DNA from: a virus
Strand: one strand, 5' to 3'
DNA length: 24,545 nucleotides
IMG/VR virus record: IMGVR_UViG_3300020183_000446
Coordinates: 1 to 24,545 of that record
Of this stretch, positions 1,054 to 18,700 are shown piece by piece. The translations under genes and the position numbers were made by a program. Under the pieces are notes generated by a model, which did not search any database, had not been told where the DNA came from, and saw only the letters and a list, made by a program, of their open reading frames with translations. Positions within the stretch are counted from its first letter, which is position 1. Each line of letters opens with the position of its first letter.

Positions 1054-1704
1054 TTAAAGTTTTCGTAGGAAGTTTTCGAAAAGTTGCAATCCAACAGATT
1101 CAATATCTCTGCGTGATGCTTTGCGAATTTGCTGTTTCGAATAGTTAATATCTGATTCGACAAACTTACCTTCTACGAATAACCATTCTTTGTTTTCCAT
1201 GATGCCCTGAACGAAAGCGCCAGGTGCAGAAGGATCAGCAACAATATCAGCAGCAGTTGCAAGACGTAGATCATCTTGTACCAAATTGTAACCTTCTTTT
1301 GTCATAACGACTGAGCCTAAAGCACGTGAAGAAACACCAAGATTGACACCTGATTCAATCAGATTTTTTGCAATCAAACCATATGGTGTTTCCATAATGA
1401 GTGCTTTACCAACAAATGTATTACCGTTTTCTACCAAACTTGTAATCTTGTGTGACACACGTTCTAGATTCAACGATGGTGTATCTGGGTGACCTAGTTC
1501 ACCCAATGCACGGTTTGTGTCGATGTATTCTTGTTTGTAACGAGCAACTTCGTTACGCAGTGTGTTCATTTTGTACATACGATTGTTGCGATTGACTTCA
1601 TCGCCAACAAGGAATGTACCTTCAATGTAAAGTTGTTTCTTACCGTCTTCTGTCTTTTCGGTAAGATATCTTACATTTTCAATGTGTTCTTTGATGAGTT
1701 TCAT
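1054..1704 (-). CDS. 21: Prohead core maturation protease gp21
   Basis: Serine protease of the T4 gp21 family. It is packaged in the prohead core and trims the scaffold and capsid proteins during maturation. The 216 residues are close to T4 gp21 (212). Likely catalytic residues are visible: His72 in GELGHP, Ser125 or Ser126 in GVNLGVSSRALGS, and Asp157 in VADPSAPGAF. In this family cleavage follows an I/L-x-E motif. The start ATG overlaps the stop of the preceding gene by one base (TAATG), and AGGAG lies about ten bases upstream inside that gene, so translation is probably coupled. The place between gp68 and gp22 is the same as in T4. Confidence 0.95.
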   Translation of the reverse strand: MKLIKEHIENVRYLTEKTEDGKKQLYIEGTFLVGDEVNRNNRMYKMNTLRNEVARYKQEYIDTNRALGELGHPDTPSLNLERVSHKITSLVENGNTFVGKALIMETPYGLIAKNLIESGVNLGVSSRALGSVVMTKEGYNLVQDDLRLATAADIVADPSAPGAFVQGIMENKEWLFVEGKFVESDINYSKQQIRKASRRDIESVGLQLFENFLRKL

Positions 1705-3171: not shown

Positions 3172-3366
3172 TTATTCTACTGTTTCTTCGTCTTCGGTAT
3201 TTTCTTCGTTGTTTTGCTCTTGCCCGCCAAATAAAGTAGCAGCCATTTCTTGCTTACGACCTTGCAACGCATCGAACGCTTTTGCGGATAAAACATTTTC
3301 TATACCTTCTTTTGCTGCTGCACTATCACCAGCGGCAATGTGATTAATAACTTCTTGAATTTGCAT
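3172..3366 (-). CDS. 67: Prohead core protein gp67-like
   Basis: Small prohead core protein like T4 gp67 (80 residues), here 64. The N-terminal two thirds is a helical segment with small residues (MQIQEVINHIAAGDSAAAKE, later AFDALQGRK), and the C-terminal 20 residues are strongly acidic (Glu/Asp/Asn). In T4 this protein is a core component cleaved by gp21; an I-Q-E at residues 3-5 fits the I/L-x-E cleavage pattern. GGGAG lies upstream of the ATG, and a TATAAATA box sits 26 bases before it. Its position just after the portal gene matches T4. Confidence 0.85.
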   Translation of the reverse strand: MQIQEVINHIAAGDSAAAKEGIENVLSAKAFDALQGRKQEMAATLFGGQEQNNEENTEDEETVE

Positions 3367-3378
3367 AGTAACTCCCTG

Positions 3379-5049
3379 TTATCTGCGTCTATTATTTATA
3401 TTGACAACTGATCGATTTACCTCGTCATCAAGGCCAGGTGTCAGTGATTCCTCTGTTTCCTCAGTGTTTTCAACTGTGTTGTCTTCTGGCTCTGCTTGTG
3501 GTTCTGCACTCTGTTGTGGTCCACCTAATACTGGTCCTTGCATATCATTAGGCAAAGTATCTTTTTCTTCTTGAATCTGGTTTTGCATGTCTTCGATTTC
3601 TTCATCAGTCATCATAAGAACTTTATTCATGACATAGTGATTTGAAAAATAACGACCAACAAACGGATCAACCAAGCTTACCATCTGCAATCTATTTTGA
3701 AGCAACTCGGCTTCACGCAACTCAGTAAAGTTATTGTCTTTACGAAAATCATAATAGATATTTTCTTTAAAGTCATCCCATTCTTCGCGGGTACAAATAC
3801 CTTTAAGTACCAATTGTACTTTAAGTACATCATCAAATATCTGTGAAAACTTATTACGAAGACGAACAACAAATTTTGCGAACTTTAATTCATCACGGGT
3901 AATTTCTTGACTTTTGCCCATCCCAGCAAATCCACCTTCTTGCGATTCTAGTCTCGAATATGGTACATTGAGAGATTGTAAAAGTTTCTTTTGAAAGTAT
4001 TTAACATCTTCTAATTCACCAAGATTCTGACCTGCTGGTAAAGTAGTAATTTCTGTACCTTTACCACCTTCTCTTCGTGGTAACCAGAAGTCTTCAAGCA
4101 TCGACATGTGTTTGCGTTCGTCACGAATCTCACCAGTGTTCGCATCATAAACTAATTTGTTACGATATTTGATCATGATATCACGCAGATATTGCTCTGC
4201 TTTACCGCGTGGCAAGTTACCAACGTCGATGTAAAAAATACGGCGTTCTGGTGCGCGTGAAATACGATAGATAACAATCGCATCTTCAATCATTCTTAGT
4301 TGATTGAGTGGCTTGATTGCTTTGTGTAGGTACGAAATGACAAATGTATTCTTTGCATCCATCAAACCTGAATTGATATTAATAATCGAATCTGGTGCAA
4401 TACGAATACCTTGTCCTACATTTGAAGTAAATGTTTGCGTGGTTGTGCCACGATCATTGTAGACATAGTATTCAGCAACCGATACAACGATCATTGCTCC
4501 TGTTTTTGGATCACGATCTTTTTTAATCTCACGCACCTTACGAATTTTGCGTGGGTCAATATATCTAAGTTCTTGAATACCTTCTTTAGGGTTTTTGTCA
4601 TTAACTACGATATGATAAAACATACGGCCATCAATGTACCAACGTTTGAATAAATCGTCAGCAAGATTACTGAAGTTCAACATCTTCAGTACATTATCAA
4701 ACTCTTCAATGATTTTTTTCTTAATTGTTTCTGGCTGCTTTAGATTATCTAAAACAATATCGACAACTTTACCTGCTTCATCGTGAGTGATAGCTTCATT
4801 GACAATTTCATCAATTGCCATTTGACATTCAGGATGATTAGACATTTCACGATATCGAGTGATGAGTTCAATTTCATTTCGAACTGAACCCTCTAAATCG
4901 ACATATGTACCATAGTACGCATTTTGCGTAACGGTAACTGCACCATCATCTACGGTCGCAGAAGGCAAAGCAAAGGATGCCTGTTCGGGTTTTTCAACCT
5001 CGACGACATCCTTTGAGCCTATTGTAAAGCCAAAAAGTTTAATTGCCAT
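3379..5049 (-). CDS. 20: Portal vertex protein gp20
   Basis: The portal forms the twelve-fold ring at the unique capsid vertex. It starts prohead assembly, docks the terminase and connects to the neck. The 556 residues compare with 524 in T4. The N-terminal region has the T4 portal signature YYGTYVDLEGSVRNEIELI followed by the helical stretch MSNHPECQMAIDEIVNEAI. The core contains RELRYIDPRKIRKVREI-type strands and the conserved APERRIFYIDVGNLPRGKAE segment, then LPAGQNLGELEDVKYF. The last 50 residues are an acidic, disordered tail. AGGAT precedes the ATG. The gene lies directly downstream of the terminator that ends gene 19, and no clear late promoter is seen in that short gap. Confidence 0.96.
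   Translation of the reverse strand: MAIKLFGFTIGSKDVVEVEKPEQASFALPSATVDDGAVTVTQNAYYGTYVDLEGSVRNEIELITRYREMSNHPECQMAIDEIVNEAITHDEAGKVVDIVLDNLKQPETIKKKIIEEFDNVLKMLNFSNLADDLFKRWYIDGRMFYHIVVNDKNPKEGIQELRYIDPRKIRKVREIKKDRDPKTGAMIVVSVAEYYVYNDRGTTTQTFTSNVGQGIRIAPDSIININSGLMDAKNTFVISYLHKAIKPLNQLRMIEDAIVIYRISRAPERRIFYIDVGNLPRGKAEQYLRDIMIKYRNKLVYDANTGEIRDERKHMSMLEDFWLPRREGGKGTEITTLPAGQNLGELEDVKYFQKKLLQSLNVPYSRLESQEGGFAGMGKSQEITRDELKFAKFVVRLRNKFSQIFDDVLKVQLVLKGICTREEWDDFKENIYYDFRKDNNFTELREAELLQNRLQMVSLVDPFVGRYFSNHYVMNKVLMMTDEEIEDMQNQIQEEKDTLPNDMQGPVLGGPQQSAEPQAEPEDNTVENTEETEESLTPGLDDEVNRSVVNINNRRR
3393..3400 (-). promoter_or_regulatory. T4-type late promoter box for gene 67 and the prohead core genes
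   Basis: The minus strand reads TATAAATA, an exact T4 late core. It is embedded in the last codons of the portal gene, 26 bases before the gp67 start. It would drive 67, the unassigned gene, 68, the 120-residue gene and 21, the core proteins needed in many copies, without raising portal expression. Confidence 0.7.
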
Positions 5050-5092: not shown

Positions 5093-5638
5093 TTAGAGAA
5101 CACCATCTGCAACTGCTTCCCACCACTGGTAGGTAAGTGTTACAGTAAACTCTTCAATCGCATCATTTGAACCCCAATCGACATCAATCGGTGTGATGTC
5201 TGTTGGATACATACCTATAAATCTATATTTTTTGATTGAGTTACCTGCTTTACCAAACTGTGTAACTTCTCCATCAACCGTGTATCCTAATGGTGTACTT
5301 GCAATTGGATTACGAACATTGAGATTGTGGCTATTGATACCATTCATCCAACGCTCAAATGCATTGCGTACAACAAAATCTTCATCATTGATGATTGTTA
5401 CTGTCCAATCAGCAAAAGTACGATTACCCACAAACTTGAGTTCACGACCAAAATATTGAACAGGTACAACACCCAAAGTAGAACCTGGAAGCTGTGCTGT
5501 CTTACACATAAAAGTCATTTTTGTTTGTGCGTTTCCTGGTAATGAGAACACAGGAAACGGCATACTAACCTCAAATAGGTTTGGGCGGGCACCGTCACCT
5601 TGTAGTTGTGATCGGAACTGGTTTACATTGAATGCCAT
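5093..5638 (-). CDS. 19: Tail tube protein gp19
   Basis: Subunit of the inner tail tube through which DNA leaves the particle. The 181 residues compare with 163 in T4. The N-terminal portion has the family pattern FRSQLQGDGARPNLFEVSMP and then CKTAQLPGSTLGVVPVQYFG, the conserved loop of T4-type tubes. The middle carries FVGNRTFADWTVTIINDEDF, and the end is the strand-rich VDWGSNDAIEEFTVTLTYQW. AGGAG lies a suitable distance before the ATG, and the gap to the sheath gene is short. A strong terminator follows the stop, so tube messages end here. Confidence 0.96.
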   Translation of the reverse strand: MAFNVNQFRSQLQGDGARPNLFEVSMPFPVFSLPGNAQTKMTFMCKTAQLPGSTLGVVPVQYFGRELKFVGNRTFADWTVTIINDEDFVVRNAFERWMNGINSHNLNVRNPIASTPLGYTVDGEVTQFGKAGNSIKKYRFIGMYPTDITPIDVDWGSNDAIEEFTVTLTYQWWEAVADGVL

Positions 5639-5664: not shown

Positions 5665-7350
5665 TTAAGCTGCACCTACCACTTCATTAAAACTTACACC
5701 TGTACGAACCGCTACAAAGTTAAGTTGAATGAAGTTGATGGAACGAGCAGGTTTAATGTAAATGTCACCTACAAATTCATTACGATCAATAACTTCTCCT
5801 GTGTTGTTTGTTTCATCACAGACAACACGGTAGTCTGTAATACCACGACGACCTTGAACATCACGCAGGAAAGGCTCTACGAGAGAAACGAACTGTGCGC
5901 GGGTAAACTGATCATTAAATTCAAACAGAGAGAAACGTGCCGCGCGTGAAATTGTTTTTTCAAGCGTGATGAACAAACGACGAACATTGATACGATCAAA
6001 TGCACTTGGCTTGCTCAACATTGTTTTATCACCAAACAGAACTGTACCTTCACCAGGGAAAGAAACTACTGGGTTAACGCCCTTTGTATATAGAGTGTCG
6101 CGTTCCGCCTTAGTTGGATTCCATGCAAGTTTAATTACATTCTTAATTACACCACGATTTAGACCACCTGGTGAGAACCATGGATCACGTTCGTTATCTG
6201 TACGAACACATAGTCCTGCAATGTCGCCATTAAGTGGTATCCAACGATAAACATCATTGTACTTGTCATACTGATATTTGTAACCTGAATCAATTACCGC
6301 ATAAGATGATGATGTAAGTGAATCTCTAAAATTAACAATGTCTGTAGCTTCACTGCCTGCGTTATCAACACAGTCCGCTTTTTCTGGTGAAACAAATGCA
6401 ACACAGTCTTTTCTTGTGCCTGCAATGTTATCAATAACATGAGTAGCGATTGTTGCATTGCCTGTACCAGTTACAAGTAATGAAATATCAACGGCTTCAG
6501 CGTTTACAAACTTGTCCCAACCACTCTCAAGTTGAGAGTTGCCAACGGTACCGTCTGTTCCACCAGAGAATGAAAAAGTTACATTACCTGTTGTATTTGC
6601 AAACACGGATGCGTTTGCTGATAAACCCCATGCTGTTCCTGCACCAGTATTTTGTGTAGGATGTGCAACTGACCAAATGTATTTTGATTTAGTTTCAATT
6701 ACTTTTTTGTAGTAATTTGAGTTACCTGAATCATCTCTTGCATCTGATGCTTTAGAAACAAAACCAAATTTTTCTAGAACTGTGCCTTGTGCGCCTGTCC
6801 ACAATCCATCTTCATCGATAACGATAACATGTAATTCATCAAAAGAACCATTTCTTGATGATACATATCCTGATGTTCCTGGTGCTGAAGAGAATTGTGA
6901 CTTGTAAGCCCATGTACCATATGATGCTGCATCGGCTAAAGATACTTTAAGTGAATTACCTAAAGCTCCTGGCCAACGAGCAGCAAATCCGTTGTATGAG
7001 TTTGCTGCATAACCTGTATGATTTTCATCATAATCATCTTCGCTTTTAATGACTAATGATCCGCCATTTGCGGTTGCGTTATTACCATTTGTAGGAATAG
7101 CACGAACAATCTTTAAGTTATTACCATAAGATAAGAAGTTCGCAGCAGAGAACCAATACTCATAATTTGCGCTATCTGGTTTGCCGAATCTGTCCGTCAG
7201 ACGAACTTCATCGGAAATAGTTGTGACTACACCACATGGTCCCCAATTAAAAGGTCCTACAAATGCGCCAGCAGAAGTGACAACTGAAGGAATAACTGTA
7301 GTCAGATCAATTTCTGATACATTCACTCCAGGTGATAATTGAAATGCCAT
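5665..7350 (-). CDS. 18: Tail sheath protein gp18
   Basis: Contractile tail sheath subunit. The 561 residues are shorter than T4 gp18 (659), with size differences expected in the outer protease-resistant domains. The N-terminus LSPGVNVSEIDLTTVIP and the following GAFVGPFNWGPCGVV are typical of T4-type sheaths. The C-terminal core is also recognisable: RINVRRLFITLEKTISRAA, then FVSLVEPFLRDVQGRRGI, and a final strand with YIKPARSINFIQLNFV. These conserved ends form the inner ring and arms that mesh neighbouring subunits. AGGAG stands before the ATG, and a CTAAATAG promoter-like box lies 43 bases upstream. Confidence 0.97.
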   Translation of the reverse strand: MAFQLSPGVNVSEIDLTTVIPSVVTSAGAFVGPFNWGPCGVVTTISDEVRLTDRFGKPDSANYEYWFSAANFLSYGNNLKIVRAIPTNGNNATANGGSLVIKSEDDYDENHTGYAANSYNGFAARWPGALGNSLKVSLADAASYGTWAYKSQFSSAPGTSGYVSSRNGSFDELHVIVIDEDGLWTGAQGTVLEKFGFVSKASDARDDSGNSNYYKKVIETKSKYIWSVAHPTQNTGAGTAWGLSANASVFANTTGNVTFSFSGGTDGTVGNSQLESGWDKFVNAEAVDISLLVTGTGNATIATHVIDNIAGTRKDCVAFVSPEKADCVDNAGSEATDIVNFRDSLTSSSYAVIDSGYKYQYDKYNDVYRWIPLNGDIAGLCVRTDNERDPWFSPGGLNRGVIKNVIKLAWNPTKAERDTLYTKGVNPVVSFPGEGTVLFGDKTMLSKPSAFDRINVRRLFITLEKTISRAARFSLFEFNDQFTRAQFVSLVEPFLRDVQGRRGITDYRVVCDETNNTGEVIDRNEFVGDIYIKPARSINFIQLNFVAVRTGVSFNEVVGAA

Positions 7351-7405: not shown

Positions 7406-9037
7406 TTACAAATTTGATGATAAATAGCCTGCTGGAGGCTCCCACATGTCTCCGTCTTCCACTTCCAATTCTCTACGCAGTCCATCTTCAATGAAACCAA
7501 ATGGCAAAACGCTTTCTTCACCTAACAAGTTCTGCTCTTCCAACATAATTTTACGGATATCAATTCTTGTTTCATCTTTAAAAAATGTCTGTGCTGTTAG
7601 CCATGCATAAAGCACCAGACCCATTACAATATCATCATTATTACCTTCTTCAGCCGCATAAGTGTCTTTCTTTCGAACGAATGTATTTAATTCTGCAATT
7701 GTGTCGAAATCATTAATAATTAACTTGTCATTTTCAATCAATGTTTTAAGGTTCGCACAACCAATTTTTTTGACAGACTTGGTTGTTTTGACGCCAAAAG
7801 CAACTGAACGTTTGAAGCCAGCGGAAATGCTTTGTCCTTTAATATGATGATGCTCTAGCTTATAAATGTTTTCATATTCCAGATCATAATGTAGAATATC
7901 TACGACTTGTTGACCTACATTATTGGTTTCAATTAGCACATATGCTTGATTGTAGCGATTAGCTAAAGAATAAATGACTGTAGGTAAAAACAATAATGGT
8001 AATTTGTTATTACGATAACGTGCAACTTGTTTATATGGAGCTTCTGTCGCATCTAAAATATTAATTGTGTGGTAATCTAGCGCAACACCTTCAGAACAGT
8101 CTACCGTTGCAATGTAAATTCGCCCAGGCTTTGGATTTTCATACACAAATAAATTTCCATCATCTTCAATACGCATAGGATCATGAAATGCCAATGAACG
8201 TAGTTTTGAGCCAGAAATGAGTGTTGCTGAAGAACCAATAAATTCCGTTTCAAATTCTTGACGAAACTGTTCTTCAGAAGTATTTCGTATTGTTTCTTCT
8301 TTCCACTTTTGATCACGTCCTGGAACTTGTGACCAGTGAATCTCTAATGTTTTGTAGAGTGAACGCCCCTCAATGGCATCCATCCACATCTTATAAAATA
8401 GATTTAAACCATTTGGTGTGGAAACAATAATTACTTTAGATGTTTTACCAGATGAAATAACAGGATAAGTCGATGTGAAAAAATCTACTGCCATGTTGTG
8501 TGGCACAAAAGCAAATTCATCAAGAAAAATTAAATTATATGTACCACCACGGACACCTGCTGCTGAAGTTGCATATGCATAAATCTTTGAGCCATTTTCT
8601 AATTCAATTGAACGTTTGTTCCAATTAATAATACCTTGTTGAAGCCACATTGGAAGGCATTCATACGCTTTTTGAATTTTGGCTAGAATATCTTGTGCAA
8701 GTTGAAGTTTGTTTGCAAGAATACCAATCACAAATTCTTCATTAAATAATGCCGACCATAACATATATCCAACAGTTGTAGTTGTTTTACCTACCTGTCG
8801 TGGCATTTTTGCAATAACGAATCGATTACTATGAAACTGTGTGACCATATCTTCTTGAAAGTCCCACATTTCAAATGGTACAAGACCTCGATCTACGTTG
8901 ACAATTTTAACGTATGTTCGAATAAAATATACTGGATTTTCAATACATTTGGCCAGTTCTATGGCCTGTTCTTCAGTATAGGATATTTTAACACCGACTC
9001 TTTTAAGTCGTGCATTACCAAGATATCCGTCATCCAT
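7406..9037 (-). CDS. 17: Terminase large subunit gp17 (packaging motor and nuclease)
   Basis: ATP-driven motor that pumps DNA into the prohead through the portal and cuts concatemers. The 543 residues compare with 610 in T4. ATPase domain: Walker A MPRQVGKT at 78-85, Walker B LIFLDE at 169-174 and the coupling motif VSTPNG at 205-210. C-terminal RNase H-fold nuclease: likely metal ligands are Asp313 in TVDCSEG, Glu370 in LIETNN and Asp468 or Asp469 in NNDDIVMG. All key residues are present, so it looks active. The gene begins four bases after the Dps-like stop, and the small terminase gene lies beyond that. Confidence 0.97.
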   Translation of the reverse strand: MDDGYLGNARLKRVGVKISYTEEQAIELAKCIENPVYFIRTYVKIVNVDRGLVPFEMWDFQEDMVTQFHSNRFVIAKMPRQVGKTTTTVGYMLWSALFNEEFVIGILANKLQLAQDILAKIQKAYECLPMWLQQGIINWNKRSIELENGSKIYAYATSAAGVRGGTYNLIFLDEFAFVPHNMAVDFFTSTYPVISSGKTSKVIIVSTPNGLNLFYKMWMDAIEGRSLYKTLEIHWSQVPGRDQKWKEETIRNTSEEQFRQEFETEFIGSSATLISGSKLRSLAFHDPMRIEDDGNLFVYENPKPGRIYIATVDCSEGVALDYHTINILDATEAPYKQVARYRNNKLPLLFLPTVIYSLANRYNQAYVLIETNNVGQQVVDILHYDLEYENIYKLEHHHIKGQSISAGFKRSVAFGVKTTKSVKKIGCANLKTLIENDKLIINDFDTIAELNTFVRKKDTYAAEEGNNDDIVMGLVLYAWLTAQTFFKDETRIDIRKIMLEEQNLLGEESVLPFGFIEDGLRRELEVEDGDMWEPPAGYLSSNL

Positions 9038-9040
9038 TTT

Positions 9041-9475
9041 TTAACGTGTAAAACTTTTCAACATCCAACCATGTTTTTGATGTGCGTCAAGAATGTCTTG
9101 CAAAAAGTTTCCAACCGCTGGTTCATCAGCAGCATCAGCTAATGCAATTCCTGCACGAAGTTCCAGAATGTATTTGTCGTTATCTGATGCAAGCTCAGAC
9201 ATCATAATAAGTGAAGAAGGAATAGCGACAACTTCGTTAATCTTTGATAGTTCTATCATTCTTGCCAAAGTTGTTGGCGCGTATGAACCTAACGCACGAA
9301 TGTGTTCTGCAATCGCGTCTGTTTGGTCATATACTGCTTCATAAAATGTACCTAAAAATCCATGATATTCAGCAAAGTTAGGACCTTCTACGTTCCAATG
9401 AAATGAATGTGCTTTAAAATACAAACCGAAGTTTGTACCTAAAATGACTTTCATTTGCTCTATTAATTGTTCCAT
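9041..9475 (-). CDS. Dps/ferritin-like protein between the terminase genes
   Basis: Four-helix ferritin-like protein of the Dps family, 144 residues (E. coli Dps has 167, with a longer DNA-binding N-terminus absent here). Dps proteins form 12-mer cages that oxidise and store iron and may coat DNA. The signature HWNVEGPNFAEYHGF is clear. By alignment with E. coli Dps the ferroxidase ligands are His26 (for H51), His38 (H63), Asp53 (D78) and Glu57 (E82), but the place of Asp67 holds Gly42. Iron chemistry may therefore be altered. The gene is tightly packed, five bases after gp16 and four before gp17, so it is co-expressed with packaging proteins. T4 has nothing here. A packaging or DNA-protection role is inference. 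Confidence 0.92.
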   Translation of the reverse strand: MEQLIEQMKVILGTNFGLYFKAHSFHWNVEGPNFAEYHGFLGTFYEAVYDQTDAIAEHIRALGSYAPTTLARMIELSKINEVVAIPSSLIMMSELASDNDKYILELRAGIALADAADEPAVGNFLQDILDAHQKHGWMLKSFTR

Positions 9476-9479
9476 AATT

Positions 9480-9881
9480 TTATTTATTTCCTTTTATCAT
9501 TTTGAGTAGTTCATTAGTAGAGCCAACAAAGACTGCTTTATCTATGTTGACTCCTTTACTAGTTTCAGATTGAGGTGCAAGCTCTTTTTTTCTTTTCTGT
9601 AACTCTAGTAAATCTTTATTCATCTCAGCCAGATTTTTCATCATCGTAGCCAAAACTTCATATGCACGTGGTGATTCCGACTGATTTGCTACTGAAGCTA
9701 ACTCAGTCAATGCTTGATTACCATTTGTAATTAACTCACGCATATTGTCGCGGGCAAATTCAGCATCAGAATCAATTTGATTTACACCATCATCAACAAC
9801 CACAGATAATGGCTCTATGATTTTTTCTTCAATAGGAGCAACATCAAATATTTCAGATAGATTTTTATTTAGCTTTTTCAT
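9480..9881 (-). CDS. 16: Terminase small subunit gp16
   Basis: Regulatory terminase subunit that recognises DNA and stimulates gp17. From the ATG at 9881 it has 133 residues (T4 gp16: 164). The N-terminus MKKLNKNLSEIFDV is typical of T4-type small terminases. A central coiled-coil pair (about 45-95), including ARDNMRELITNGNQALTELA and AEMNKDLLELQKRKKEL, forms the oligomerisation helices. The C-terminus has VFVGSTNELLKMIKG. An in-frame ATG at 9899 would add six residues, but the 9881 start overlaps the gp15 stop as ATGA and matches the family N-terminus better. No good ribosome site is seen, which fits coupling to gp15. Confidence 0.9.
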   Translation of the reverse strand: MKKLNKNLSEIFDVAPIEEKIIEPLSVVVDDGVNQIDSDAEFARDNMRELITNGNQALTELASVANQSESPRAYEVLATMMKNLAEMNKDLLELQKRKKELAPQSETSKGVNIDKAVFVGSTNELLKMIKGNK

Positions 9882-10879
9882 AATAATGTGTCGGGCCATT
9901 CTGTAATTGTTTCTGTATAACCAAAATTTGAATTTGGTAACGCTGTGTTAGGATTAGGTTCTGTTACTACAGACACCAATTTTACTGGACTTATATCCAA
10001 AGTTTCCACTGTATATGTTGCACCAGAATAGTCGCCAGTCAACACATAACCCGTTTCGATAAGCTTATTGCCATCTGTAATTATCAATGTGCCTGCAGAA
10101 GTATTGCTAAAGTATTCTACTGTACCGAAGAATCCATTTGCAGTATCACGAAGTGTTTCTCCAGTAGTAAACACATTATTGCCATTTGCATAGTCAACAT
10201 AAACCTTTTGAATATCTCTAGATGCTGTATCAAGATTAATATTTGTATTAGCGGAATTAATAATTTTGCCTGTCTTGACTGGTGGCCAGATAAAACTTTT
10301 AGCTGTAAATGTTAAATCCCAAACAATAATTCTAGTTGTTCCATCACTCATTCCACCCTCATATTCTACCGTAGAAGCGACTGAGTTTAAAATAATTGGA
10401 ACTGTATATTTTTGATCCATTGCAGGAATAAAATCTACAACAACACTAAAATCAGGCGTAAAAAATGGTAAAATCTGTTCAAGAATTTGTGTGCCATCTT
10501 CAGTGTTACGAACAAATATAGACAAACTAAATTCAAAGTTATATGGAACAGGAAAAAATTGAGTGTTTACAATTGAGTTTGTCGCACCTGAAAAGTTTTG
10601 TAGTGTGGAAATCTGTTTACGATTCGCATCATACTCAAGACTTTCTAGATTGAAAGACATTCTTGGTATTACAGCATTAACCGACTTAACCAGATTTGGG
10701 TCAGAAGTAATCTGTGTTAGATAACGTTCTTTGGGTCCATATGATAATGGTACTTTAAGTTTTTCTTTTGCCAAACCAGCTTGTGTGTAACGTACAATTT
10801 CAAGATCGTTGAACATAGTACCAAAAATAACTACCATCTTACGGATGGTACGATGATAAAATTGTGCATTACCTAGCAT
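9878..10879 (-). CDS. 15: Tail completion and sheath stabiliser protein gp15
   Basis: Forms the terminator ring at the head end of the tail and joins it to the neck. The 333 residues exceed T4 gp15 (272). Residues 1-55 carry the family pattern: RTIRKMVVIFGTMFNDLEI, then LKVPLSYGPKERYL. The middle (about 75-200) has VIPRMSFNLESLEYDANRK and FPVPYNFEFSLSIFVRN. Residues 232-296 (DNA 9992-10186) look like an added small beta domain made of two tandem units around TTGETL and TGYVLTG. The C-terminus returns to FGYTETITEWPDTL. The start codon overlaps the gp14 stop (TAATG) and the end overlaps gp16 (ATGA). Confidence 0.93.
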   Translation of the reverse strand: MLGNAQFYHRTIRKMVVIFGTMFNDLEIVRYTQAGLAKEKLKVPLSYGPKERYLTQITSDPNLVKSVNAVIPRMSFNLESLEYDANRKQISTLQNFSGATNSIVNTQFFPVPYNFEFSLSIFVRNTEDGTQILEQILPFFTPDFSVVVDFIPAMDQKYTVPIILNSVASTVEYEGGMSDGTTRIIVWDLTFTAKSFIWPPVKTGKIINSANTNINLDTASRDIQKVYVDYANGNNVFTTGETLRDTANGFFGTVEYFSNTSAGTLIITDGNKLIETGYVLTGDYSGATYTVETLDISPVKLVSVVTEPNPNTALPNSNFGYTETITEWPDTLL

Positions 10880-11787
10880 TAAGGTTCCCCAAACGGATTG
10901 ACTTCCGTAAAGTCAATGATGTTATCACTTGCAGCTTCAATTCTTGCATTATCAATAATGTCTTCGAATGCAGTGTTTTGCGTTGCAGCATCAGAAGTAA
11001 GTGTGACTGTCCACTGAGCAGAACTAGTATTACCTTTCACATTTGCTGACGCACTAAAATCTCCTTGTACACGATAAATGTCAATGTGTGTATTAGGACT
11101 AAAATCATATACAAGTGCTTGCGCTGTTGCAGTAGCAAGTGATGAGCCTTGATATATGATTTCATCATTGATAAATTTGCCTGTGCCACCAGCACCTAAT
11201 GAAATACGGGTTTTTGGATAATAATCGCGAATTGTATTATCGATTTCAGCAACACCTGTATCAACAATTTCATTTGAAAAATAATACTGCTTCATCTTTA
11301 AAGCATAAAGATAAACATTACCTCCACGTCCACGACCTAATGTATAAAACATTGCTTGATTGATTTCAGATTCAACATCAGTAATCTCAAACATTGATGC
11401 AGTCATAGGAACATAAACTAAATCACCAGAATTTGGTCGTATTAGACCATCAACTGTGTATTTAAATCTCAGTCTTGAAACAAGCATCGTCACTTCATCA
11501 CGAATTTCTAAACCAAACTTTGAAATAAAATCTTGATCTCCATCAAATCCACTTACATTTTCCAAATACATTTCGATAGGATGTGCAGTTCGATATTCTT
11601 TGAGAGCATCTTCACCAAACAAATAGTCCACTTCGTCGCGTGTTGTGCGCGGTAAATAGTAAACATCTAATCCGTAAATTTTAAGGGCTTCGATAACTAA
11701 ATCTTCAACTAATAACTGTTCTGGAGTGATTGGATTACCATCACTCAGTCTTGAAGGGAAATTATTGAAGTAAAAATTAGTTGCCAT
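10879..11787 (-). CDS. 14: Neck protein gp14
   Basis: Neck (head-completion) protein that joins filled heads to tails together with gp13. It has 302 residues (T4: 256). The N-terminus TNFYFNNFPSRLSDGNPITP and the following LVEDLVIEALKIYGLDVYYL are characteristic, and the C-terminus IIDFTEVNPFGEP is the usual family ending. Residues 203-265 (DNA 10993-11181) are a beta-rich extension with the pattern F-x-x-D-E...A-T-A-x-A, repeated as GDFSASANVKG; it probably accounts for the extra length. The start overlaps the gp13 stop by one base and the stop overlaps the gp15 start. Confidence 0.94.
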   Translation of the reverse strand: MATNFYFNNFPSRLSDGNPITPEQLLVEDLVIEALKIYGLDVYYLPRTTRDEVDYLFGEDALKEYRTAHPIEMYLENVSGFDGDQDFISKFGLEIRDEVTMLVSRLRFKYTVDGLIRPNSGDLVYVPMTASMFEITDVESEINQAMFYTLGRGRGGNVYLYALKMKQYYFSNEIVDTGVAEIDNTIRDYYPKTRISLGAGGTGKFINDEIIYQGSSLATATAQALVYDFSPNTHIDIYRVQGDFSASANVKGNTSSAQWTVTLTSDAATQNTAFEDIIDNARIEAASDNIIDFTEVNPFGEP

Positions 11788-12737
11788 TATCCAGTGAAGA
11801 TTTCTGATGGCAATGAACCCATCTGATAAATCTCTTCTTCCAATTGTTTAATTTCTTCTGTCGCTTCATCGTAAATTTTTTGTCCATTAAGTGTGACACC
11901 ACCAGGCATTTGAATACCTTCAAACTTTTTAAGATTGTTGCCCCATTGTTGTTTGATTTTTGCTGTTGCCAATTGCTTGAGAAAACGATCATTCCATACA
12001 TCTGTTGTGCCTTCAATTGAAATAGCCGAGTTACTATGCGTCAATGTTGGTGGTCCAACTAGTGTAAGGCTTGTAGGAGATTCTATATTACCTACTTGCT
12101 TAGACTCGTTGCCGATTGTAATAAAATCAAAGGGTACAATTTCTTGATCAAATTTAGTACCATAACCTGTAATTGTATTTGATGATGGATTACCTGTAAC
12201 TGTGCCTGTTAGTGTGACCGTTTCAGGTCGTAGTACACGATAACACTCAACAACAATCCATTCTCCTGGCTCAACATCTCTTGTCCAATCAATATCAAGA
12301 AAGACTTTGTTTTGATGACGATTGAAACGAAACTGTGGTGTACCAGAAAACAATAGATTCAAAGTTCGTAGATGTTGCATGGTAATTTCATAAGACACAT
12401 ACGATACTGAAGTAAAGTCGTAAAGATCGTGTAGGCGTAACTGATAACGTAAATCGAACATATTGATTGATGCATTTGAATTATCAAATGGAAAAATACC
12501 AGTTACAAACTGAATTGCATCTGGGCAATAAATCCATTGACGGTCAATATCCGCTTGCGTGATTTGATGTTTCATATACAACTTTTCGGTACCATCATAA
12601 TGATAGTCACGCCAGAAGTTGACAGCATCATCAATTCGATCATCTACTTGATCGTCATCTACGTTGATTTCAATAACTGGAAATCCAAGTCTTCGTAAGC
12701 AGTAATCTTTAAATTGTTGTCTAGTTGAGATAAGCAT
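11787..12737 (-). CDS. 13: Neck protein gp13
   Basis: Neck protein that seals the portal after packaging and binds the tail via gp14 and gp15. It has 316 residues, near T4 gp13 (309). Family features are the N-terminus RQQFKDYCLRRLGFPVIEIN, DDRIDDAVNFWRDYHYDG, the LRYQLRLHDLYDF segment and LDIDWTRDVEPGEWIVVECY. Residues 173-244 (DNA 12006-12221) read as an inserted beta-sandwich of the kind seen in phage surface proteins, with GTVTGNPSSNTITGYGTKF and later IGNESKQV and LTLVGP. The C-terminal helical part (FLKQLATAKIKQQWG onward) resumes the gp13 pattern. It starts 18 bases after the long fibre gene and opens the 13-14-15-16 chain. Confidence 0.93.
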   Translation of the reverse strand: MLISTRQQFKDYCLRRLGFPVIEINVDDDQVDDRIDDAVNFWRDYHYDGTEKLYMKHQITQADIDRQWIYCPDAIQFVTGIFPFDNSNASINMFDLRYQLRLHDLYDFTSVSYVSYEITMQHLRTLNLLFSGTPQFRFNRHQNKVFLDIDWTRDVEPGEWIVVECYRVLRPETVTLTGTVTGNPSSNTITGYGTKFDQEIVPFDFITIGNESKQVGNIESPTSLTLVGPPTLTHSNSAISIEGTTDVWNDRFLKQLATAKIKQQWGNNLKKFEGIQMPGGVTLNGQKIYDEATEEIKQLEEEIYQMGSLPSEIFTG

Positions 12738-12755: not shown

Positions 12756-15700
12756 TTATGATACACTTCCCATAATTACACAAACAGTAGGACTTACAAA
12801 CAATATTGTTGCAACGCCTCTTGTAGCAAGACTGACTGATGCTACATCTAAATTGAAACCTGCAATATAAGCGGTAGTAATACTACAAGTAATACTTACA
12901 CTAGCACCTGTATTATTGAAAATTGAGATTGCATCACCAGCAGCGAAAACATTATTTGGAATTACAATAGAACCACCTGTGCCAATTTCTACAAATTCAC
13001 CAACATCAGTTACCGCTAATGTATATTGAGATGTTTTTTGACCTACAGCGGGTATGTTTCTGAAACCCATTGTAAAACTTTGGTCTGGTATGGTAATTGT
13101 TCTGCTTGTAGTTAAAGTATCAGGAACAATGGTTGCCGAATAAGAACTTGTTCCTCCAGAACGTCCTTTAATAGTAATTGAATCTTGAGTCGTAGCGTTT
13201 TCAACGACAAGTCCATCTGTAGAGCTGACTGTAACTTTAGCTGTGACTGTACCACCATTGTTCGCGTCTAATGAATTATTCGCACGAATAAAAGCTGCGT
13301 TAGCGTGTAAGAAAGATGCATTTGTTGAGTCGAATATCGTATTTGTTCTTACTAATAAATCAATACCCTTTGTTAAAACATACGTTGAATGTAAGTTAGC
13401 ATTAAGAGTATCGATTACAAAAGAAGGATCATTGAGATCGATATTATTGTTTTCACCAATTTCTGGCGTATAGCCTTTGAACAAATGCCATTCTTTCGTG
13501 ACAGTATCACGGATTAAACCTGAATGTGCATTTGTGCCATCATTATAATGACCAGCAAATCCTAAATCTTTCAAATCGGATATATAATTTCCTGCGCCAA
13601 GAATAATTACCGTATCGTTTGCAACTAATGTGGTTGCATTTACACTAAATGTTTGACCAGTAACAACTAAGTTACCCGCAAATAAGTTATTGGTAACAAC
13701 TAAACTACCAGTAATTGTACCACCATTATTTGCGTCAATCGAATTATTTGCACGAATAAAAGCCGCATTTGCATGATCAAACGAAGCATTGGCTTGTATG
13801 AATCCAGAATTGGCGTGATCACGGGAATATTGATCTATTGATCCAGCCGCAATTGTGTTGGCAAAAACAAAAGCAGCATTTGCATGATCAAACGAAGCAT
13901 TTGTTTGAATGAAACTTGAATTGACATGAATAAATGCAGCGTTCGCTTGAATGAATCCAGAATTGGCGTGATCACGAGAATATTGATCTATTGATCCAGC
14001 CGCAATTGTGTTGGCAAAAACAAAAGCAGCATTTGCATGATGAAACGAAGCATTGGCATATTGACCTGTTGCATTCTGTGATTGATAAGCCGAGTTCGCA
14101 TGACCAAAAGCGGAATTAGTTTGAATGAATCCGCTGTTCGCATGAATAAATGCACCGTTAGCTAATGTGAATGCTGCATTGGCATATTGACCTGTTGCAT
14201 TTTGACTTATGTACGCAGCATTAGCATGATCGAATCCAAAATTGGCATGAATAAATGCAGCGTTCGCATATTGACCTGTAGTATTCTGTGACTGATAAGC
14301 CGAGTTCGCATGATTGGATGCATAGTTTGCATGTAGGAATGATGAATTTGCTTGAATGAATCCAGAATTTGCATGATCAAAAGCTAAATTAGTTTTTATG
14401 AATCCGCTGTTCGCATGAATGAATGCGGCATTGGTATCATGATAAGCTGAGTTAGCTTGAATAAATCCAGAGTTTGCATAATCAAATGATGCGTTTGCTT
14501 GAATAAATCCAGAATTTGCATGTATATAAGCAGCGTTAGCAGCGGCAAATGCACCATTAGCATTTGCGAATGCAGCATTCGCTTTTGCAAAAGCACCATT
14601 AGCATTTGCGAATGCAGCATTAGCATCATGGTATGCACTATTTGCTTGAATAAATCCAGAGTTTGCATGATGAAAAGCGGAATTAGCATATTGTCCAGTT
14701 GCATTTTGACTTTGATATGCTGCATTTGCGTGATCAAAAGCGGAATTTGTTTTTATAAATCCAGAGTTTGCGTGGATAAATGCCGCATTGGTATCATGAT
14801 AAGCTGAATTGGCTTGAATAAATCCAGAGTTTGCATGATCAAATGATGCGTTTGCTTTTGCAAAAGCGGCATTTGCGTTTGCAAATGCATAGTTAGCATG
14901 ATGAAACGCAGAATTTGTTTGTATAAATCCACTATTTGCGTGAATAAATGCAGCGTTTGTTAAATCAAAGATTATATTTGTTCTTGGTAATAAATCAATA
15001 CCTTTAATTGTAACGAAGGTTGAGCGTAAATTGGCGTGAAGAGTATCGATTTGAAAAGAAGGATCATTGAGATCGATATTATTGTTTTCACCAATTTCTG
15101 GCGTATAGCCTTTGAACAAATGCCATTCTTTCGTGACAGTATCACGAATAAAGCCAGAGTGTGCATTTGTGCCATCATTATAATGACCAGCAAATCCTAT
15201 ATCTCTAGTGTCTGCAAAATAATTACCTTCTCCTAATACAATAACTGTATCGTTAGAGACAAGTGTTCCTGCATTGATACTAAACGTTTGACCTGTAACA
15301 AATACATTGCCCACAAATAAATTATTGGTAACTGTCAAACTACCAGTAATTGTGCCGCCATTATTTGCATCGATTGAATTATTGGCTCTTAAAAATGCAG
15401 CATTCGCATATTGACCTGTAGCATTCTGTGAGATGTACGCAGCATTCGCGTGATCATATGCGCTATTTGCTTGTATGAATCCGCTGTTTGCATGATCAAA
15501 TGCAGAATTAGTTTTAATGAATGCAGCATTAGCGTCATGATACGCAGAGTTAGCTTGAATAAATGCCGAGTTTGCGTGATGATATCCATCATTTGCTTTT
15601 GCAAAAGCGGCATTTGCGTTTGCAAATGCATAAGAAGTGTAGACGTATAAATCTACAGTTCCATTTGAACCAAAGAAGTAGTTTGAGAAAATGGCATTTG

Positions 15701-18700
15701 CACCAGTAATGCTTCCATTTCCACCAACTGTTGTAACTGATTCTGTTGTTATGTTACCAGTAACACTAAATTCACCTGCAACATTAATCGACGCTGATAC
15801 GTTACCACCAACATTAGCATCCAACGAATTGTTCGCACGAATATATGCAGAATTGGCATGATCGAATGCTGAATTCGTTTTTATGAATGCAGAGTTGGCA
15901 TGATTGAATGCATAGTTTGTGTGTAAGAATGCTGAGTTTGTTTTAATGAATGCGGAGTTAGCATGGATAAACGCAGCGTTCGCATATTGACCTGTAGCAT
16001 TTTGTGACTGATAGCTTGAGTTGGCATGATTGAATGCATAGTTTGCATGAATAAAACCAGAGTTGGCGTGAATGAATCCACTATTCGCATGAACAAACGC
16101 AGCATTCGCATCATGATATGCGCTGTTTGCTTGAATAAATCCTGAATTTGCATGTATATAAGCGGCATTAGCAGCGGCAAATGCACCATTAGCATTGGCA
16201 AACGCAGCGTTGGCTTTGGCAAAAGCACCGTTAGCGTTAGCAAAAGCAGCATTAGCATCATGGTACGCACTATTTGCTTGAATAAATCCAGAATTTGCAT
16301 GAATGTAAGCAGCGTTAGCAGCAGCAAAAGCACCATTCGCATTGGCAAACGCAGCGTTAGCTTTAGCAAAAGCACCATTAGCATTTGCGAATGCAGCATT
16401 AGCATCATGGTACGCACTATTTGCTTGAATAAATCCAGAGTTTGCATGATGAAATGCCGCGTTGGTATCATGATAAGCTGAATTAGCTTGGATGAATCCA
16501 CTATTCGCATGATTGAACGAATAATTTGCATGTAAGAATGCAGAATTCGTTTTTATAAATGCTGAATTGGCATGAATAAATGCTGCATTGGCATCGTGAT
16601 ATGCGGAGTTTGCTTGAATGAATCCAGAATTTGCATGATCAAAAGATGCATTAGCTTTAATGAATGCGGAGTTAGCATACGATGATGCTGACGTTGCGCC
16701 TAAATCGTCATAACCAATACCATCGTTTGTAAATTGCCACTTATCTAGTGTTTCATTCCACAACAAGTAAACATTTGCCAAAACACCGCGATCAACTTCA
16801 ACTCCTGCGTCGGAAATAGGTGTCTGTGACTGATTTACTGCTGCATTGAGTGTAATAATATTGTCGGCAATTAATACCGTAGAAGTGTTCACATACGTGG
16901 TTTGTCCAGTTACAGTCAAGTTACCTGTAATGCGAACATCGCCTGTGACTGTACCACCAACATTTGCATCAAGCGCATTGTTAGCACGAATGAATGCGTA
17001 ATTTGCATGTAAAAATGCAGAATTAGTTTTTATAAATGCACTATTCGCTTGAATATATGCCGCATTAGATTTCGCAAAAGCGCCGTTGGCATTAGCAAAA
17101 GCAGAGTTGGCCTGTCTGAATGCGCCGTTGGCATATACACCAGCAGAATTTGCTGCAATAAATGCACCATTGGCATTTGCAAAAGTTGCATTTGCTTGAA
17201 TATAAGCCGAATTCGCGTGTATGAATCCTGAATTTGCGTGTATGTAAGCTGCATTTGATTTAGCAAAAGCGCCGTTAGCGTTTGCAAATGCAGCATTTGC
17301 GTGATCATAAGAAGAATTAGCATGAATAAATGCTGCGTTCGCATATTGACCTGTTGCATTCTGCGACAAATAAGCTGCATTAGCTAAATCAAAAGCTGCA
17401 TTTGTTTGAATGAAACTTGAATTGACATGAATAAACGCACCATTTGCTATCGTAAACGCAGCGTTCGCATATTGACCAGTTGCATTTTGGCTTAGATATG
17501 CTGCATTTGCAAGATCAAATGCAGCATTAGTTTGAATGAATCCACTATTTGCTTGAATATAAGCAGCATTAGCAGCGGCAAATGCACCATTAGCATTCGC
17601 AAACGCAGCGTTTGCGTGATGAAATCCAGAATTTGCATGAATGAATGCACCATTAGCTACCGTAAATGCTGCATTCGCATAGTTGCCAGTTGCGTTCTGT
17701 GATTGATAAGCAGCATTTGCATGTATGAATGCTGATTGTGCGTGAGTTATTGCCGCATTAGCTTGAACGAATCCAGAATTCGCGTGATTGAATCCCGCAT
17801 TGGCATATTGACCAGTTGCATTTTGTGAGATGTAAGATGCATTCGCATGATCAAATGCTGCATTCGCTTTAACGAATGCTGAGTTGGCGTAAGAAGATGC
17901 TGAAGATCCACCCAGATCATCGTAACCTACACCATCGTTTGTAAATTGCCACTTATCTAGTGTTTCATTCCACAACAAGTAGACGTTAGACAAAGCACCA
18001 CGATCAACTTCAATTCCTGCATCGGCAACTGGAGTTGATGACTGATTGATTGCAGCATTTAATGTAATGATATTATCAGCAATTAATACGGTTGAAGTAT
18101 TAACATATGTTGTATTACCTGTGACAGTAAGATTACCTGTGATACGAACATCACCTGTAACTGTACCACCAACATTCGCACTCAGAGAATTATTTGCTCT
18201 TAAAAATGCAGCATTTGCATATTCACCAGTTGCATTTTGACTTTGATATGAGGCATTTGCATGTACAAAAGCCGAGTTCGCGTATTGTCCAGTGGCATTT
18301 TGAGAAATGTAACTAGAATTGGCATGATTAAATGCCGCATTCGTTTTTATAAACGAACTATTTGCATGAACAAATGCAGCGTTAGCGTCATGATACGCAG
18401 AGTTGGCTTGATTAAATGCTGCATTCGCATAGTTGCCAGTTGCGTTCTGTGATTGATAAGCCGAGTTTGCGTGTAAGAATGCGGCGTTTGTTTTAATAAA
18501 TGCTGAATTGGCGTGAATAAAGCCAGCATTAGCGTGAATGAATGCTGCGTTAGCTTGAGTGAATGCTGAGTTTGTATATTCACCAGTTGCATTTTGACTT
18601 AAAAATGCGGCGTTTGCTCTATCGAATGCAAGATTTACTTGTGCAAAACTAGAGTTTGCGTGAATAAATGCGGAGTTAGCATATTGACCAGTCGCATTTT

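Follow-up and report, generated by a model that had tools for sequence, protein, structure and literature searches.

Within one large clade of T4-like phages, a gene for a Dps-family mini-ferritin has become fixed in the gap between gp16 and gp17, the genes of the small (TerS) and large (TerL) terminase subunits. We describe it here from the window, i.e., the whole stretch of 24,545 nucleotides that was analysed (a 24.5-kb virus record, IMGVR_UViG_3300020183_000446). Phage Dps are already known; what is new is this fixed site and, in other phages, the fusion of Dps to head proteases. The account that we favour, and hold to be somewhat probable, is that a true Dps mini-ferritin removes Fe2+ and peroxide near the phage DNA late, at or in the head, and that the gap itself is a cargo site. 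The terminase-gap Dps and the protease fusions make it directly testable whether phages protect their packaged DNA from iron and peroxide.

The Dps ORF is complete on the minus strand, and the plus strand of its frame contains many stops. It is separated by 4 nt (9476 to 9479) from the stop of gp16 and by 3 nt (9038 to 9040) from the start of gp17. An earlier note on this DNA had recognised a complete Dps-type gene between these two genes, without giving its strand and with gaps of "four to five" bases, and had rightly pointed out that T4 has no gene at this site; there, gp16 and gp17 overlap by 17 nt. The surrounding genes run gp13-14-15-16-Dps-17-18-19-20-prohead core-protease, which, Dps apart, is the T4-like structural operon order:

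11787 to 12737, minus strand: gp13, head-tail adaptor (PHROG 211, 2.9e-42)
10879 to 11787, minus strand: gp14, neck / head closure (PF11649, 1.5e-28; PHROG 460)
9878 to 10879, minus strand: gp15, tail sheath stabiliser (PF16724, 2.5e-61)
9480 to 9899, minus strand: gp16, terminase small subunit, directly upstream of Dps (DNA_Packaging PF11053, 5.3e-11; PHROG 445, 9.2e-32)
9041 to 9475, minus strand: Dps-family mini-ferritin ORF, 144 aa (P0001; PF00210, 2.3e-20; PHROG 3636, 3.7e-30; AlphaFold pLDDT 96.7; VIA Z 23.4 to 2c41_B)
7406 to 9037, minus strand: gp17, terminase large subunit, directly downstream of Dps (Terminase_6N PF03237, 9.4e-30; PF17289, 5.7e-16)
5665 to 7350, minus strand: gp18, tail sheath (PF04984, 4.7e-17)
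5093 to 5638, minus strand: gp19, tail tube (PHROG 45, 1.7e-60)
3379 to 5049, minus strand: gp20, portal (PF07230, 2e-183)
3172 to 3366, minus strand: 64-aa prohead-core (gp67-like) ORF (PHROG 1064 'prohead', 6.1e-5; families of unknown function match better)
1054 to 1704, minus strand: gp21-type prohead protease (PF03420 Peptidase_S77, 1.9e-34; PHROG 207, 2.6e-72)

The collinearity of these genes and their tight spacing suggest that the Dps ORF would be expressed late. Exact matches to TATAAATA, which we take to be the T4-type late promoter consensus, are at chance level in the window (2, versus a shuffled mean of 2.2).

By its profiles and its AlphaFold model, the predicted protein is a Dps mini-ferritin. 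The Pfam Ferritin profile spans residues 12 to 142; 66 PDB sequences match at E ≤ 0.001, the best being a solved Dps (2.9e-20), and the NCBIfam Dps models match as well, under their equivalog cut-offs. The single-chain model (mean pLDDT 96.7) has helices at residues 2-28, 34-49/52-61, 70-76, 88-115 and 119-143, i.e., the four-helix bundle with a short mid-chain helix that makes the Dps fold; we take helix 70-76 to be the BC helix typical of Dps. All 144 residues align with Dps of T. elongatus (2c41_B) at an rmsd of 0.9, and the model of the relative L072 likewise supports the family and fold. The fold is the same over the whole length in cellular Dps of P. aeruginosa (PA0962, 8ff9), T. elongatus (2c41) and A. 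tumefaciens (1o9r), with VIA Z of 23.3, 23.4 and 21.1 at 32, 21 and 22% identity. Unlike these proteins, the window protein is phage-encoded within a packaging gene run, lacks a tail and has Gly at the fifth ligand. The family call, which the earlier note had considered firm, is thus confirmed by the profile search and structure prediction that it had proposed, profiles (PF00210, PHROG 3636) and fold agreeing.

The core ligands of the predicted inter-subunit ferroxidase centre are H26, H38, D53 and E57 (two His, Asp, Glu), presumably corresponding to E. coli Dps H51, H63, D78 and E82. All four are invariant in 185 of 185 aligned rows (63 from the terminase slot, 53 from other phages, 22 of S-SRM01 type and 47 cellular), and H38, D53 and E57 are also present in two stray slot rows outside this set (L295 and L302). 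A fixed-offset reading had given 'HHIA' in 3 of 22 rows classed as 'else'; in the full alignment, 53 rows out of 53 read H, H, D, E, an indel shift being the likely cause of the first reading. The fifth ligand position, which we take to be that of E. coli Dps D67, is Gly42 in the window protein. It is G in 29, N in 16 and D in 14 of the 63 slot-clade rows, with few others, and M in 28, E (acidic) in 17 and G in 2 of the 47 cellular rows; the idea that phages in particular have lost the fifth ligand was rejected, since the nearest cellular Dps vary there too. Gly42 could weaken the second iron site.

The earlier statement that Dps proteins bind or protect DNA is, as far as binding goes, not supported for this one. 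Its first helix begins at residue 2 and its last ends at 143 of 144, leaving no N-terminal tail; 25 residues precede H26 in 62 of 63 slot rows, versus commonly 30 to 43 in cellular rows (starts chosen by script). Because the basic N- or C-terminal tail that contacts DNA in DNA-binding Dps of the E. coli type is absent, and the pI is 4.96, we do not file it among them. A Dps that binds phage DNA and compacts it for packaging, in the manner of E. coli Dps during starvation, would suit the family name and the site between the terminase genes; we consider it improbable, given the lack of an N-terminal extension, a pI of 4.74 to 5.92 across the slot clade, and fold matches that include A. tumefaciens Dps (1o9r), titled as protecting DNA without binding it. 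With the tail absent and a pI of about 5, iron or peroxide detoxification is therefore likelier than DNA coating.

The position of the gene is strongly conserved among close relatives. For both the Dps and the gp17 collection scans, the best 80 relatives were used. The 144-aa Dps is encoded by 80 of the 80 best viral-contig relatives and, because the same 144-codon ORF recurs in all of them, it is not a chance ORF. Directly upstream lies gp16 in every case (gap of -17 to +11 nt), and gp17 is directly downstream in 76 of the 78 that could be tested; the other two (L041 and L042) have a 568-nt insert between Dps and gp17. The L041 insert holds a 190-aa ORF (8439 to 9008 of that locus) with a NUMOD3 match, of homing-endonuclease type, and the L042 insert is of the same size. 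In eight relatives (L054, L055, L056, L058, L061 and L066-L068), gp17 is 43-57% identical to that of the window (two of them cut short) and Dps 69-72%; the position of Dps is therefore kept across two gp17 lineages, and gp17 seems to have been exchanged beside a retained Dps.

Scans anchored on gp17, which exclude loci already collected by the Dps queries (11 of 80 and 4 of 80), gave a wider view. With gp17 of L079 as anchor, Dps is directly upstream in 60 of the 64 uncut new loci among the best 80, and gp16 abuts gp17 in 4. With gp17 of L054, the 68 uncut loci among the best 80 divide into 27 with Dps, 24 with gp16 next, 14 in which the closest recognised gene is gp15, and 3 with none; in 4 of the 24 with gp16 next, a 142-aa ORF lies between gp16 and gp17, that of L541 being an SNase (PF00565, 2.7e-10). 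On a gp17 tree of 122 rows (FastTree, with a long-branch warning; Dps rows partly chosen by Dps; thinned at 97% over the last 400 residues), the presence of Dps in the slot takes 6 state changes versus a shuffled mean of 32.

Dps is missing from a few relatives nested among Dps carriers. In L427, gp16 abuts gp17, which is 97% identical to that of the Dps-bearing L432; the absence is most simply a recent loss. Dps was not found in the records behind L427, L428, L455 and L471 (fragments of 6.6-33.5 kb). These cases bear on whether Dps is a direct part of the packaging motor, e.g., a cofactor of TerS/TerL, as its tight spacing and co-inheritance with the terminase genes could indicate. Since Dps is missing in nested lineages or replaced, it is therefore not a required motor part, and with L427 lacking it and other genes or nothing taking its place in sister phages, we hold any direct motor role to be very unlikely.

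Nearly all slot Dps group together. In a Dps tree of 187 rows, 63 of them make up a single clade (100/100), whereas the slot rows L295 and L302 are placed with other phage Dps, and the 47 cellular rows stand apart; the tree was thinned above 93% identity (phage) and 85% (cellular), the cellular rows coming from the nearest 80 genome loci rather than from a survey. The branch of the window protein is separate from the nearest cellular rows in both Dps trees (for the second, see below). The gene is under purifying selection: the protein is maintained, because the median dN/dS of Dps is 0.069 (1122 pairs), similar to that of gp17 (0.053) and gp19 (0.075), over pairs limited to dS of 0.1-1.5, the median dS of the Dps and gp17 pairs being close to 1.1. 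Two other scans were listed whole, one with 292 relatives (of which the best 80 were kept) and one with 69 loci; L167-L239 repeat some contigs of the best-80 Dps scan, and counts over them are uncorrected.

Outside this clade, the gap between gp16 and gp17 serves as a general cargo slot. In S-PM2 it contains three hypothetical ORFs, in HTVC008M genes for a 2OG-Fe oxygenase and a tryptophan halogenase, and in the cyanophages S-SSM7, Syn1 and S-H9-2 one to six ORFs; in S-CAM1, gp17 is preceded by hypotheticals and a 2OG-Fe oxygenase, gp16 being outside the stretch viewed. The sister phages L533, L534, L541 and L557 have an SNase-type nuclease ORF in the gap (e.g., 3042 to 3467 in L541). Dps, in turn, can lie elsewhere. 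Of six sister records searched, G027, whose slot holds an SNase, and G028 carry it at another place, and none was found in G029-G032 (47-79 kb). Dps and gp17 are more than 30 kb apart in at least 10 further records having both (nine contigs and S-SRM01). In one of these contigs, L087 (from a Bacteroidetes MAG), two of the ORFs around Dps match families of virion structural proteins, and in S-SRM01, Salmonella 7-11 and S-EIVl Dps sits among non-head genes. The 132-kb L087 contig is apparently a T4-like phage binned into a bacterial genome, and its gp17 match is split into two parts separated by about 1.4 kb. A psbA-family gene (PF00124) was found in 0 of 16 records, 11 of them behind slot-clade loci and many of them fragments, with a positive Synechococcus control, and the idea that the slot-clade phages are cyanophages was rejected on this count.

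From the site, the earlier note had suggested a role in packaging, in DNA protection or in iron handling. The linkage stands within the clade, where Dps is locked to the terminase pair; position alone implies no packaging role, because the gap is a cargo slot, Dps lies elsewhere in other T4-like phages, and nested relatives lack it. The note had also taken a gene that moves around independently of the terminase genes as evidence against its reading, and the gene-order survey that it had proposed shows such movement outside the clade, where other T4-like phages place Dps elsewhere, and not inside it.

The main rival to our account is that Dps is ordinary stress cargo, which helps the infected cell against peroxide or iron from a gap that is functionally meaningless and simply accepts genes. 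The other contents of the gap in S-PM2, HTVC008M, the three other cyanophages and the SNase-bearing sister phages fit this reading, as do the large Dps-gp17 distances and the placement of Dps in G027 and G028. Host dps is, moreover, among the most induced genes during YerA41 infection, according to an excerpt of PMC7354516. On the contrary, Dps occupies the slot in 63 of 63 clade rows, across two gp17 lineages about 43% identical, and is thus more fixed than loose cargo. We regard the stress-cargo reading as a serious possibility, if a less probable one than the removal of iron and peroxide at the head.

A head-associated role is suggested by phages in which Dps is joined to head proteins. Foldseek searches of viral models, for which the model of the relative L072 was the query (that of the window protein itself was compared only with solved Dps, by VIA), found Dps domains within proteins that carry the name prohead protease (BFVD entries). 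Among 77 phage Dps loci, which are HWNVxGPxF motif carriers taken first-come and not at random, the terminase slot accounts for 10, and in 6 Dps is part of a fusion at least 379 aa long. In L590, a single ORF (726 to 2024) joins Dps (residues 18-154) to a Peptidase_S78 domain (222-363, 7.3e-31) and has portal (4.2e-51) and capsid (1.7e-19) as its immediate neighbours on either side. In L614, sheath, tube, portal and a 66-aa ORF follow one another in T4-like order, and then comes a 440-aa fusion with a central Dps domain (616 to 1935); a near-identical fusion in L639 (4361 to 5680) lies two ORFs from gp20. Both occupy the site where prohead-core genes usually lie. The fusions of L568, L630 and L631 follow portal-like genes, Pfam matches being below cut-off for L568 (0.008) and L631 (0.005) and the L630 match coming from an iterated model only.

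A scan with L590 brought 68 further loci, 48 of them with a Dps ORF of at least 250 aa, some ended by contig edges; the 52 fused rows of this set include four reference loci. An N-terminal head maturation protease match was found in L697 (937 to 2925; 2.4e-6), with portal before and major head protein after, and in L700 (1585 to 4062; 4.7e-6). The match is weak in L720 (1936 to 3990; 1.3e-3), where portal is the third ORF upstream and major head protein the second downstream. Pfam reports Ferritin only, and no protease, for the L697, L700 and L720 type. By eye, some Dps-protease fusions carry a coiled-coil-like stretch after these domains, in the portal-capsid region. The H, H, D, E ligands of the window protein are kept in 18 of 18 thinned fusion rows. 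In a 92-row tree (fused and single rows thinned at 85%, other groups being samples), the fusions form their own Dps subclade (100/97), to which 9 unfused rows also belong. This subclade is nested in a larger phage group (95/82), together with the slot clade and the L614 fusion, the latter on a long branch.

The window Dps is unfused and adjoins TerS and TerL in a structural gene run, whereas the Dps of the fusions is covalently part of prohead proteins. The fusions suggest a head-associated role for it by analogy only, because their Dps falls in another subclade and the phages that carry them are for the most part unrelated. Of the 77 motif-found loci, 20 contain a recognised gene for head or packaging functions; such a gene is the immediate neighbour of Dps in 18 of these 20 (10.9 expected), or in 8 of 10 when slot loci are left out (3.5 expected); these counts are descriptive, the portal and capsid models having been seeded from genes near Dps, which favours adjacency. 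PHROG tallies of 102 Dps neighbours, among the matches listed, gave 7-8 for cytidyltransferase-like families and 3 for portal, with DNA polymerase reaching up to 11 of 102 controls (from 211 control ORFs), and are too scattered for a count. DUF5824, 'CWxGY...NCVP', 'SFCARM' and cytidyltransferase-like modules recur beside phage Dps or fused to it (L581, L596, L718).

The removal of iron and peroxide that we favour can be laid out as follows. As in its family, the protein would assemble into a cage of 12 subunits with ferroxidase activity. This cage would bind Fe2+, oxidise it with peroxide and store the resulting rust, and hydroxyl radicals would thereby be kept from forming beside the phage DNA. 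Such protection would most likely be chemical rather than by DNA binding, because the basic tail of the E. coli Dps type is absent. Encoded alongside the terminase and neck proteins, Dps would act late, while replicated genomes are packaged, and its most likely site of action, given its head-linked relatives, would be at or inside the head.

A narrower form of this account is that the prohead incorporates the cage, which then remains with the DNA inside the capsid and protects it during entry or in transit between hosts. The protease fusions, the T4-like site after the portal and the adjacency counts, with their seeded models, all lean this way. On the other hand, the window protein stands alone, neither joined to a protease nor bearing an extension recognised as capsid-targeting; its neighbours TerS and TerL are not known as virion proteins in T4; and in 57 of the 77 sampled loci no gene for head or packaging functions is recognised. 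A ferritin-like protein, modelled by Phyre2 at 22% identity, was detected in a virion preparation of a Vi01-like phage, as an excerpt of PMC10892097 reports. We consider virion cargo possible and rather doubtful. We would extend it, equally tentatively, to a widespread class: in many aquatic phages a ferroxidase cage may become part of the prohead, through protease fusion or through co-expression with terminase and core genes, and be packaged with the genome, the window gene being the stand-alone, terminase-linked form. If so, virions would carry their own iron and peroxide scavenger.

For the Vi01-like phage, the protein was treated as an aid to entry, a 'Ferrojan horse' whose iron in the particle would promote uptake via iron-uptake receptors (PMC10892097, excerpt). 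The abstract of the same paper reports no such dependence for the single host tested, and a head-linked cage would meet no receptor; we hold iron bait to be the least likely reading for the window phage.

Elsewhere, phage Dps have been treated as an aid against host oxidative stress, in excerpts on gut phages (PMC8008677) and Lactobacillus phages (PMC6669764). The PHROG 3636 Dps of Salmonella 7-11, Lactobacillus phages and S-SRM01 are of the same family as the window protein, and the fold of the Lactobacillus phage Semele protein matches that of L072. Unlike the window gene, the PHROG 3636 Dps inspected lie near replication, metabolism or other non-terminase genes (PMC6669764, excerpt). The DPS of 'Gratiaviridae' and other gut phages were likewise proposed to limit oxidative damage, and the excerpt of PMC8008677 mentions neither a terminase-slot site nor a fusion to head proteins, unlike the phages here. 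Among isolate phages, 46 records match the window protein, at 31.5% identity at best, so that none is close. Within the best-ranked part of the literature (titles and abstract starts, with subscription papers and preprints outside), we found no paper on Dps in the terminase gap or on Dps-protease fusions, and the text of a pelagimyophage paper (PMC7029224) does not contain 'ferritin'. Three candidate mentions were set aside: a giant-virus match in a Lake Baikal paper (PMC9611531), 'DPs' as a capsid protein in a paper on phage 7-7-1 (PMC12796354), and a ribonucleotide reductase (PMC7765460).

Two further ORFs of the window, both on the minus strand, deserve mention. The first (12756 to 19097) encodes 2113 aa with no Pfam match; parts of it match many places in relatives, i.e., it is repetitive, and it is perhaps a fibre-type structural protein. 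The second (21906 to 24308; 800 aa, with a TTG start as listed) contains repeats such as 'TYSLVYTTAAAY', matches Pfam Vgb_lyase over part of its length (3.7e-15) and is perhaps beta-propeller-like.
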